64,000 nt of DNA, taken from assembly GCA_018000995.1 (NCBI GenBank), contig JAGNIU010000012.1, positions 1-64,000 of the forward strand, read 5' to 3'. The stretch's first letter is position 1, and every line of letters starts with the position of its first letter. The stretch comes from Bacteroidia bacterium (lineage in GTDB: Bacteria; Bacteroidota; Bacteroidia; B-17B0; Aurantibacillaceae). A program made the translations under genes and the position numbers. The notes beneath the pieces were generated by a model. It ran no database searches. It was not told the DNA's origin and worked only from the letters and a program-made list of their open reading frames with translations. Positions 52,572 through 63,003 of the stretch are shown here, piece after piece.

Positions 52572-53881
52572 CGCAGAATCAGAAGTCGGTTCGCGTCCAG
52601 CTTAATAAAAATAAAAAGGAGAATCGTAAAACTCCACAAAGAAGAACCACCGTAACTGAAAAATGGTAGCGGAATTCCAATTACCGGCATTAAGCCGATC
52701 GTCATTCCGATATTTATGCACACATGAAAAAATAAAACTGATGCCACTCCGTAACCATAAATTCGGCTAAAAGGAGAGCGTTGCCGTTCCGATAAAAATA
52801 TAACGCGCAATATTAAAAACAACTCCAATAAAACTACTACTGTGCTTCCAAAAAAGCCCCACTCTTCACCAACCGTACAAAAAATAAAATCTGTATCCTG
52901 CTCAGGAACAAAATTATATTTGGTTTGCGTGCCCTGCAAATAACCCTTACCTGCCCAACCGCCCGAACCAATAGCAATCTTCGACTGATCAACATTATAT
53001 GCTTCATTTTTCTTATCTACTTCGCCTGTGCCTAACAGAACATCTATACGTACTTTCTGGTGCGGTTCTAAATGTTCATAAACTTTTTTTGTGCCTAATA
53101 CCATGCCGCTTGCCATTGCTAAGATCAATCCGGCCCAAATAAAATTTCGCGTAGTGCGCTTTACAAATAAAAACGAAGCAGCGGTGATACATCCCAATAC
53201 GATTATTAAAGTTGAAATGTGCGCCACCACTAATGACAAAATGAAAAGGATCACAGCCAGCAATCCAAACAATAAAAAATTTATTGATAATCCTTCGCGG
53301 TAAAGAACTATGATCAGCGATACAAATACAATTGCTAATCCTGTTTCATCCTGTAACACTTTAATAATTATAAGAGGAGCGGCAAGAAATAGAACTGCAA
53401 TTAAAGTATTCTTATAATTTTTAAAGAGATCTTTCAGTCGCAAACGATAGCGACTCACGATAACAAGATTTTCGTTACTTAAAAATTTTGCAAGGGCGAG
53501 ACAAGTTGCAAATTTCATGAACTCAGCAGGCTGAATTCCAAATCCCCCAACCCCGAACCATGAGCGACTGCCTTTGATCTCTCTTCCAAAATAAGGAACT
53601 AACAAACAAAGCAACAATACAATTCCGTAGAACCAATAGGCAAACACAGTATAAAAACCGGCATCAATCAATAAAATTGAAAATGCTATTAAGGCCGCTG
53701 TTCCTATCCATATTAATTGCTTACCATATTTTTGTGTGGTGTCAAAAATATTCTGGTGCTCTTCGTTATAAACCGCTGCGTAAATATTAAGCCAACCCAT
53801 GAATACCAAGAGAGCGTAAGTGAGGACCGTTATCTTGTCGACACCATAGAATAAACTATTTTCACTTTGCCTTAATGCCAT
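52568..53881 (-). CDS. rodA: Rod-shape peptidoglycan polymerase RodA
   Basis: A 437-residue SEDS glycosyltransferase with about ten spans. Family segments: GIQPAEFMKFATCLALAKFLS, QDETGLAIVFVSLIIVLYR, YLQGTQTKYNFVPEQDTDFIFCTVGEEWGF, and PVIGIPLPFFSYGGSSLW. It polymerises glycan chains with PBP2 in the elongasome. The start overlaps the mrdA stop by one base. Longer than E. coli RodA (370), mainly through extra membrane segments in the middle. Confidence 0.93.
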   Translation of the reverse strand: MALRQSENSLFYGVDKITVLTYALLVFMGWLNIYAAVYNEEHQNIFDTTQKYGKQLIWIGTAALIAFSILLIDAGFYTVFAYWFYGIVLLLCLLVPYFGREIKGSRSWFGVGGFGIQPAEFMKFATCLALAKFLSNENLVIVSRYRLRLKDLFKNYKNTLIAVLFLAAPLIIIKVLQDETGLAIVFVSLIIVLYREGLSINFLLFGLLAVILFILSLVVAHISTLIIVLGCITAASFLFVKRTTRNFIWAGLILAMASGMVLGTKKVYEHLEPHQKVRIDVLLGTGEVDKKNEAYNVDQSKIAIGSGGWAGKGYLQGTQTKYNFVPEQDTDFIFCTVGEEWGFFGSTVVVLLELFLILRVIFLSERQRSPFSRIYGYGVASVLFFHVCINIGMTIGLMPVIGIPLPFFSYGGSSLWSFTILLFIFIKLDANRLLILR

Positions 53882-60934: not shown

Positions 60935-61924
60935 TTAAACCAGTTTGTTTTTCATCAAATACTCGGCAATTTGAACGGCATTTGTTGCCGCTCCCTTGCG
61001 TAAGTTATCGGCCACTACCCATAAGTTTAGGGTTTTGGGTTGCGATTCATCGCGACGGATACGTCCTACGAAAACTTCATCCTTATTGTGGGCGTTCATT
61101 GGCATGGGGTAAATTTGATTGGCGATGTCGTCTTGCAAAATAACTCCCTCCGTATTTTTCATCATTTCAAAAATGTCCTTTATATCAAAGTCATTCTCGA
61201 ATTCAATATTCACGCTTTCGCTATGTCCACCCATTACCGGAATGCGAACTGTGGTAGCCGTTAAACCAATGGAATTATCACCCATAATTTTTTTGGTTTC
61301 GTTTACCATTTTCATTTCTTCTTTGGTATAACCATTATCAGTAAACACGTCAATTTGGGGAATTACGTTTAGGTCGATTGGGTATTTATAGGCCATTTCG
61401 CCTTTAGTTCCTGCGCGCTCGTTGTTTAATTGAGCAACTGCTTTTACGCCAGTTCCAGTTACAGATTGGTAAGTTGAAACAACAACACGTTTGATTTTAT
61501 ATTTTTTATGAAGCGGATTTAAAACCACCACCATCTGAATAGTAGAACAATTTGGGTTTGCAATTACTTTATCAGCTTTAGTTAAAACATTTGCGTTTAC
61601 TTCAGGAACTATTAATTTTTTTGTCGGGTCCATTCTCCATGCTGAAGAATTATCAATTACAATAATTCCGGCCTCAGCAAATTTTGGCGCCCACTCTAAA
61701 GAAGTGCTGCCTCCTGCCGAAAATAAAGCGATGGCTGGTTTAGCATCAATAGCTTGTTGCATGGAATGTACTTTGTGTTTCTTTCCCTTGAACTCTAATT
61801 CTTTTCCAACAGAGCGTTCAGAGGCAACGGGAATTAATTCTGTTACAGGAAAATTTCTTTCCTCTAATACTTTTAACATTACGGTGCCTACTAATCCTGT
61901 GGCACCAACTACTGCAACTTTCAT
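60935..61924 (-). CDS. asd: Aspartate-semialdehyde dehydrogenase
   Basis: A 329-residue enzyme reducing aspartyl phosphate to aspartate semialdehyde, the branch point to lysine/diaminopimelate, threonine, isoleucine and methionine. NADP loop GATGLVGTVML, active-site NPNCSTIQ (Cys126), and the catalytic His in MGGHSESVN. The leader on this strand (61925-62058) carries a candidate attenuator, suggesting control by an end-product amino acid. Confidence 0.96.
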   Translation of the reverse strand: MKVAVVGATGLVGTVMLKVLEERNFPVTELIPVASERSVGKELEFKGKKHKVHSMQQAIDAKPAIALFSAGGSTSLEWAPKFAEAGIIVIDNSSAWRMDPTKKLIVPEVNANVLTKADKVIANPNCSTIQMVVVLNPLHKKYKIKRVVVSTYQSVTGTGVKAVAQLNNERAGTKGEMAYKYPIDLNVIPQIDVFTDNGYTKEEMKMVNETKKIMGDNSIGLTATTVRIPVMGGHSESVNIEFENDFDIKDIFEMMKNTEGVILQDDIANQIYPMPMNAHNKDEVFVGRIRRDESQPKTLNLWVVADNLRKGAATNAVQIAEYLMKNKLV

Positions 61925-61945: not shown

Positions 61946-61977
61946 ACAAAAAAGCCTCTCCGGTTCAGGAAAGGCTT
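61946..61977 (-). terminator. Attenuator terminator in the asd leader
   Basis: On the minus strand AAGCCTTTCC (61977-61968) pairs with GGAGAGGCTT (61961-61952, one G-T pair), loop TGAACC, then TTTTTTG. It lies between the leader peptide and the asd start, so it would stop asd transcription unless the alternative pairing with the upstream GGAGAGGC (62013-62006) forms. Confidence 0.75.
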
Positions 61978-62013
61978 GCTATTATTTTCATAATAAAACA
62001 TTCGCGCCTCTCC

Positions 62014-62058
62014 TTAACGGAAAAGTTTCTTAGAGTGTTTTATCTTTTTAGTTATCAT
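62014..62058 (-). CDS. Putative Lys-rich leader peptide of asd
   Basis: A 14-codon frame from ATG to TAA encodes MITKKIKHSKKLFR: five lysines, one threonine and two isoleucines, all products of the aspartate pathway started by asd. Its stop codon directly abuts GGAGAGGC, the first of two copies that can pair with the same downstream GCCTTTCC. The order leader peptide - antiterminator strand - terminator is that of a ribosome-mediated attenuator. A -7-like element, GATATTTG on the minus strand, lies just upstream. Confidence 0.55.
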   Translation of the reverse strand: MITKKIKHSKKLFR

Positions 62059-62115
62059 TTACGCCAGCAAATATCATAAGTTTTTAATCAATTCCAAAAA
62101 TTATTTAATTAACAC

Positions 62116-62127: not shown

Positions 62128-63003
62128 GTGAAACAAAGCTCCCTCTCGTGGGTATACCTCATTTTACTTTCCCTAATTTGGGGAAGTTCTTTTATTTTGA
62201 TGAAAGAGGGACTTGTCGCCTTTTCGAGTGATGAGGTGGCGGCTTTACGAATCGCAATTGCCTTCCTGTTTTTGTTGCCCTTTCTTTTCAAACATTTAAA
62301 AAGTGTAAACCTTAAAAAAGACTGGAAAGGATTAGTGATTATGGGCGTATTCGGAAATTTACTTCCCGCCTTTTTATTTACCAAAGCGGAAACAGAAATC
62401 AGTAGTAGTTTAACGGGAATGCTGAATGCATTAACTCCGCTTTTCACAATCGTATTGGGAATTTTAATTTTCAAAAATAAAGTTCAGCGTTATCAAATAA
62501 TTGGCGTTGCCATTGGATTAATTGGTGCTTTGTTTTTATTGGGATTTGCAGATAGTAATGAAGAATCGAAAAACATTAATTACAGTTTATTAGTTGTAGC
62601 CGCTACATTTTGTTACGCCATTAGTGTAAACGGCATTAAAAAATATTTATCGCATGTGAATTCCGTTGCGGCTTCGGTTTGGTCGTTCACGATTATTGGA
62701 CCAATTGCAATAATTTATTTATTTGTGAATACAGACTTTCAATTGCATTTGACACAGCACCCTAATGGTTATTCTGCTTTAGGATTTATTACTCTGTTAG
62801 CAGTATTCGGAACTTCTATTGCAATTATTGTTTTTAACACACTGATTAAACAAGCGGGAACGGTTTTTGCTTCCACTTGTACTTACTTAATTCCGATTGT
62901 TGCTATTGGTTGGGGATTGTTAGATGGAGAAATTGTTACAATGGTTCAGTTTCTTTCCGTGGGCGTGATTATTCTTGGTGTTTGGTTAATCAACAAAAAG
63001 TAA
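62128..63003 (+). CDS. EamA/DMT-family transporter
   Basis: A 291-residue protein with about ten spans in two EamA halves: LILLSLIWGSSFILMKEGLVAFSSDEVAALRIAIAFLFLLPF (first) and VAATFCYAISVNGIKKYLSHVNSVAASVWSF ... FNTLIKQAGTVFASTCTYLIPIVAIGWGLLDGEIV (second). Members export amino acids or other metabolites. It is divergent from asd and shares the control region with it, so export of an aspartate-family amino acid is a possible but unproven role. The start is GTG. Confidence 0.9.
   Translation: MKQSSLSWVYLILLSLIWGSSFILMKEGLVAFSSDEVAALRIAIAFLFLLPFLFKHLKSVNLKKDWKGLVIMGVFGNLLPAFLFTKAETEISSSLTGMLNALTPLFTIVLGILIFKNKVQRYQIIGVAIGLIGALFLLGFADSNEESKNINYSLLVVAATFCYAISVNGIKKYLSHVNSVAASVWSFTIIGPIAIIYLFVNTDFQLHLTQHPNGYSALGFITLLAVFGTSIAIIVFNTLIKQAGTVFASTCTYLIPIVAIGWGLLDGEIVTMVQFLSVGVIILGVWLINKK

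Follow-up and report, generated by a model that had tools for sequence, protein, structure and literature searches.

A Lys-rich leader upstream of asd and dapA in Bacteroidota is a candidate ribosome-mediated attenuator

RESULTS

A Lys-rich leader and alternative RNA pairings precede asd

The asd leader in the window (the whole 64,000-nucleotide stretch of Bacteroidia bacterium DNA analyzed here) is very probably a ribosome-mediated transcription attenuator of the trp/his type that senses charged tRNA-Lys. This reading draws on the parts of the leader, on how these are conserved, covary, and are spaced, and on the genes that follow it, all of which can be read from the sequence. The leader region (62058 to 61948, minus strand) lies directly upstream of the asd ATG at 61924. 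As the first-pass annotation had described, a 14-codon minus-strand peptide with five Lys ends in a TAA that abuts GGAGAGGC, and we confirmed both at the positions given below. The same annotation had proposed that GCCTTTCC (61975 to 61968) can pair either with this copy of GGAGAGGC (62013 to 62006) or with a second copy located before a T run, and all of these elements are present. The 64-kb window contains two copies of GGAGAGGC (versus 0.31 expected), both within the asd leader. Three further parts had been overlooked: a hairpin formed by segments 1 and 2, a 9-bp helix between alpha and alpha', and a -7-like box. The features, all on the minus strand and listed from the promoter side, are as follows.

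62068 to 62075, minus: -7-like box GATATTTG, differing at one position from TAnnTTTG, the sigma-A -7 box of Bacteroidota, and located 9 nt upstream of the ATG of the leader.
62014 to 62058, minus: leader ORF MITKKIKHSKKLFR (ATG at 62058, TAA ending at 62014; 14 codons, five Lys), from the ORF reading, the codon-position pattern, and an aligned frame that is open and ATG-started in 86 of 86 distinct relatives.
62036 to 62044, minus: alpha, the strand that leader codons contribute to the long protector helix (9 bp; partner 62000 to 61992), from covariation and folding.
62026 to 62031, minus: Lys-Lys codon pair (AAG AAA), the proposed stall site; a Lys pair occupies the aligned position in 75 of 86 sequences.
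62019 to 62025, minus: segment 1 (CUUUUCC), predicted by folding to pair with GGAGAGG (62013 to 62007) of segment 2; family-wide covariation is weak.
62006 to 62014, minus: segment 2 (AGGAGAGGC), 5' arm of the antiterminator, predicted to lie under a ribosome that has reached the stop codon.
61992 to 62000, minus: alpha', lying between segments 2 and 3 and pairing with the leader codons, from covariation and folding.
61967 to 61977, minus: segment 3 (AAGCCUUUCCU), common to antiterminator and terminator, from pairing tests and folding.
61954 to 61961, minus: segment 4 (GGAGAGGC), 3' arm of the terminator, from repeat count, covariation, and folding.
61948 to 61953, minus: U run (TTTTTT in the DNA) of the predicted intrinsic terminator, from sequence.
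60935 to 61924, minus: asd, the proposed regulated gene, whose 329-aa product scores above the NCBIfam cutoffs for aspartate-semialdehyde dehydrogenase (TIGR01296 and NF011456).

The intergenic region that holds the leader is shared with a divergent gene (62128 to 63003, plus strand) encoding an EamA-type transporter, for which the best NCBIfam match, a carboxylate/amino acid/amine transporter model, falls below its cutoff.

The genes downstream point to lysine as the signal

Among 86 distinct leader sequences, the gene on the 3' side was asd in 79 and dapA in 7, and 8 further dapA copies carry the leader. Where a genome has two copies, the second precedes dapA without exception (15/15), and the protein encoded by this dapA passes the TIGR00674 cutoff. 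Because dapA, which performs the first committed step toward diaminopimelate and lysine, is the only other target, the signal is expected to be Lys rather than Thr, Met, or His. The clade leaders KKIKHSKK, KNKKHGKK, KHTKRTKK, and KKYSSKK have Lys in common but not Thr or His; the family-level group f36 additionally conserves Thr and His (KHTKR), in part through the alpha helix.

These data bear on the possibility that the same attenuator responds to something other than lysine alone, namely, Thr or Lys together with Thr. Such a response could be expected of asd, which also feeds threonine and methionine, and would fit the f36 consensus KHTKRTKK, in which one Thr column is kept (ACA in 52 of 86) and often a second. 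However, dapA is lysine specific, the Thr column sits in the alpha helix, and the dapA leader of genus g226 (MNSIKKYSSKKNISEREDA), the f21 leaders (KNKKHGKK), and those of the window's own genus (KKIKHSKK) keep Lys with few or no Thr. We consider threonine sensing unlikely. A lysine riboswitch was found in none of 119 Chitinophagaceae genomes (four control genomes were positive), and the lysine riboswitch covariance model (RF00168) has no match in the window.

The leader is widespread in Chitinophagaceae and conserved across families

We built a covariance model from 27 leaders, with which true members scored above ∼60 bits and noise at or below ∼52 bits; two diverged members scored 50 to 54 bits, below the usual member range. 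One copy was detected in the window's own genome. The element was also found in 168 of 296 Chitinophagaceae genomes (64 of 103 genera), in 12 of 36 genomes of a further family, in 11 of 87 genomes from the same order as the window (E < 1e-6; E values are rough, owing to a short calibration), and in 16 of 395 genomes drawn from the class. It was absent from G004, a member of the window's genus, and from most genomes of its order. From these searches, what appears to be the same switch is present in about 190 Bacteroidota genomes, with asd or dapA downstream in all copies checked. Matches of 40 to 52 bits were rejected as noise; those inspected were ordinary terminators or coding sequence, except for one his and one ilv attenuator.

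The first-pass annotation had named conservation in related genomes as a check on its proposal and a conserved stem without a Lys-rich frame as evidence against it. The Lys codons and both pairings are kept in the three main family-level groups (f1, f21, and f36) and in one genome of a fourth group (f28). In genomes that lacked a strict model match, 29 asd loci were inspected, and none carried the stem in the absence of a Lys-rich frame: 27 had neither, the few terminators there being unrelated, and L243 and L247 combined a diverged stem with a Lys-rich leader (MIINITIKKHTKMKRVLHGRL and MLKIYKYTTKHVLIKEG). Related leaders (consensus KHTKRxKK) were seen at about two dozen of 80 named asd loci in GTDB genomes, mainly in Chitinophagaceae such as Niabella, Niastella, and Flavihumibacter. 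Closer to the window, five congeneric genomes (G001, G003, G005, G006, and G007) encode KKIKHSKKLFR, KKIKHAKKLFR, KKIKHTKKLF, or KKIKCAKKLFR, with AAA/AAG swaps and, in G001, a stop codon shifted by one codon.

Conservation of this kind is also relevant to nascent-peptide arrest of the TnaC/SpeFL type, in which the peptide in the exit tunnel would bind lysine or another small molecule and so stall the ribosome. Although the f36 peptide is conserved beyond its Lys residues (KHTKRxKK), only Lys is kept across clades, while the flanking residues and the C-terminal tail differ freely. Moreover, the controlled pathway makes Lys, as would suit a ribosome that stalls when Lys is scarce, and we regard arrest by the peptide itself as very unlikely.

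Codon-level patterns suggest that the leader is translated

The ATG-started ORF is open in the same aligned frame in all 86 distinct sequences, and stops in the stretch were counted in 2 sequences in this frame versus 82 and 48 in the other two. Within the conserved block, pairs differing at no more than three sites showed 95, 108, and 494 substitutions at codon positions 1, 2, and 3, respectively; among such close pairs, third positions are about five times more variable than the others, and AAA and AAG replace each other at Lys. In one Lys column, AAA occurs in 41 sequences and AAG in 40; in another, AAA occurs in 59 and AAG in 20; neither contains AAT or AAC. Lys makes up 28% of leader residues, whereas the other two frames have 9% and 14% Lys codons; the leader value is twice the expectation from the leaders' own composition and above expectation in 50 of 51 non-redundant sequences. 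In one f21 locus (L180:1501-1619), a one-base deletion disrupts the Lys-rich frame upstream of the Lys pair, reflecting either a sequencing error or a decayed attenuator.

Together, the conserved frame and the codon-position pattern suggest that the leader ORF is translated, since such a pattern is not expected from structured RNA without translation. The same evidence speaks against a structured riboswitch, for lysine or another ligand, that works without translation. Such an element could explain the strongly conserved structure with its terminator, but the loops are variable with no conserved unpaired core and there is no Rfam match; this reading is extremely improbable and was rejected.

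Antiterminator, terminator, and a long protector helix are supported by covariation and folding

RNA folding, another check that had been proposed, supported both pairings (2:3 and 3:4). The 136-nt leader RNA folds far better than shuffled sequences (z = -5.1; 0 of 200 shuffles as good). We then compared duplex energies of native and permuted partners in 51 non-redundant sequences, treating these without regard to their tree. Native 2:3, 3:4, and alpha:alpha' beat 20,000 of 20,000 permutations, whereas for the inner 1:2 hairpin, which covaries weakly, 132 of 20,000 reached the native value; two control pairings gave no signal. This approach was used for 2:3 in place of column counts because its alignment columns are out of register between clades. 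For the terminator and alpha:alpha', two-sided changes occur at 16 of 19 pairs, above all shuffles and slides. Both 2:3 and 3:4 are possible in nearly all sequences.

Folding of partial transcripts suggests how these pairings could succeed one another. Before segment 3 is made, the window RNA is predicted to form alpha:alpha' and 1:2 (-13.9 kcal/mol), and alpha:alpha' is predicted at this stage in 85 of 86 sequences. A protector hairpin that hides segment 2 by default is thus predicted, with alpha:alpha' as its firm part and the inner 1:2 hairpin as its weaker one. When most of the leader was removed, mimicking a stalled ribosome, 2:3 formed; when segment 2 was removed, mimicking a finishing ribosome, 3:4 formed. 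Folding predictions for the naked window RNA at full length favor 2:3 with 1:4, so that the default state would depend on cotranscriptional folding.

An ordinary intrinsic terminator, or repeats placed by chance, can be dismissed as practically negligible and is contradicted by the comparative data: GCCTTTCC...GGAGAGGC-T6 makes a good terminator by itself, but the upstream gene is divergent and offers no transcript to end, and neither idea accounts for the three-way covariation or the conservation in about 190 genomes.

A predicted transcription start leaves a very short 5' UTR

In 54 of 86 family members (versus 4.3 expected), the 5' stretch contains an exact TAnnTTTG box, usually separated from the leader ATG by 7 to 9 nt. 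The box maps to -12 to -5 in Flavobacterium psychrophilum (PMC9723704), which would give the family a 5' UTR of about 3 to 5 nt. For the window, the predicted transcription start is ∼62063, so that a 5' UTR of ∼5 nt would precede the leader ATG. The predicted 3- to 5-nt 5' UTR of the leader mRNA is unusually short for Bacteroidota; in Bacteroides, 5' UTRs of <10 nt are rare (3.7%; PMC7366714).

Ribosome position could select between the two structures

A distance of 8 to 15 nt separates the end of the conserved Lys pair from segment 2 in 85 of 86 sequences. The stop codon begins either 1 to 6 nt before segment 2, as in the window, or 4 to 15 nt after the start of segment 2. A ribosome covers ∼10 nt beyond its A-site codon; at the Lys pair, it would thus leave segment 2 free, and at the stop codon, in both layouts, it would cover segment 2. 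From these features, we infer a course of transcription start, translation, stalling, termination, and lysine response. Transcription would start a few nucleotides before the leader ATG, and the first RNA would fold as the long hairpin (alpha:alpha' plus 1:2). With segment 2 hidden, segment 3 would be free for segment 4, giving the terminator. A translating ribosome would open the hairpin. With enough lysine, it would reach the stop codon and cover segment 2, 3:4 would form, and transcription would end before asd. When lysine is short, the ribosome would stall at the Lys codons, above all at the Lys pair, which lies 12 nt upstream of segment 2, and would cover only alpha and segment 1; 2:3 would then pair, the terminator would be blocked, and asd would be made. 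In two-copy Chitinophagaceae, the same switch would also control dapA.

The leader therefore has the features by which trp/his/thr-type attenuators are recognized: a Lys-rich leader ORF, mutually exclusive 2:3 and 3:4 pairings, a predicted protector hairpin, sensor codons and stop placed accordingly, and a pathway gene downstream. The attenuation logic first proposed from the window alone is supported, at the level of sequence, by the frame, pairings, spacing, and target genes.

Similar leaders precede hisG and ilvE

Outside the window but in the same genome, hisG (G000:C6, ∼53,320 to 53,460; L138:1429-1560) is preceded by the leader MKTTAQIHHHHTYSNKVSVGEFCTL, which contains four consecutive His. 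A box matching TAnnTTTG exactly lies 9 nt before its ATG, and AAGGTAAGC, GCTTACC, and GGTAAGC plus a T run take the places of segments 2, 3, and 4. With alternative GGTAAGC pairings ending in a terminator, and a best Rfam match far below its cutoff, it reads as a textbook his attenuator. In G086, ilvE (L151, about 1500 to 1610) has the leader MKNNTTYINIIISLS, with GGGAAGG and a GCCTTTC terminator, and this is likely an isoleucine attenuator of the same layout. The two leaders support the view that this lineage makes general use of attenuation mediated by the ribosome. Bacteroidota may even possess an attenuation platform of their own, an idea to which we give an even chance. It would combine a near-leaderless mRNA (3 to 5 nt before the uORF), sensor codons that double as a strand of the protector helix, and a GGAAGG/CCTTCC switch, reused for lysine (asd and dapA), histidine (hisG), and branched-chain amino acids (ilvE), in a phylum for which Shine-Dalgarno loading is not expected.

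DISCUSSION

The asd/dapA lysine route of Bacteroidota gains a concrete and widespread candidate regulator, where 119 Chitinophagaceae showed no lysine riboswitch, and one that makes precise predictions by codon replacement. The proposed attenuation takes place on a transcript with apparently almost no 5' UTR and no Shine-Dalgarno sequence, raising the question of how ribosome loading keeps time with polymerase.

While the mechanism is of the trp/his/thr kind, we rate the asd/dapA leader itself as new and widespread as far as Rfam and the literature were searched. Rfam 15, including its T-box and amino acid leader families, gave no window match at gathering score, and on relatives (E up to 1) it gave two weak matches, neither to a leader of the asd/dapA type. 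A literature search found no description of an asd/dapA leader, although subscription papers were mostly outside its coverage and an earlier mention is possible.

Among known systems, the ilvB-II RNA motif of Corynebacterium turned out to be an attenuator based on a uORF and recognized by its codon pattern (PMC10272879); it differs from the asd leader in serving branched-chain amino acids in Actinomycetota. For F. psychrophilum, clues to leader-peptide attenuation before amino acid operons have been mentioned, with no detail in the main text (PMC9723704). The lysine riboswitch (L-box, RF00168) likewise controls lysine pathway genes, in other phyla, through a terminator switch, but there free lysine is sensed by an aptamer. 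To our knowledge, ribosome-mediated lysine attenuation has one precedent, in Thermus thermophilus, where a Lys-rich leader peptide reportedly governs attenuation of lysine synthesis. The Thermus attenuator reportedly serves the alpha-aminoadipate pathway and not the asd/dapA route; compared by description, it shares with the asd leader a Lys-rich peptide and differs in phylum and pathway. There is a close likeness to the trp/his/thr attenuators of enterobacteria, with which the asd leader shares a peptide rich in the amino acid of its pathway, alternative 1:2, 2:3, and 3:4 pairings, a stop codon placed for the finishing ribosome to cover segment 2, and an intrinsic terminator before the structural gene. 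Unlike these, it has a putative lysine signal, asd and dapA as targets, Bacteroidota as hosts, a predicted 5' UTR of 3 to 5 nt with no Shine-Dalgarno sequence, and sensor codons that themselves form the 5' strand of a long protector helix.
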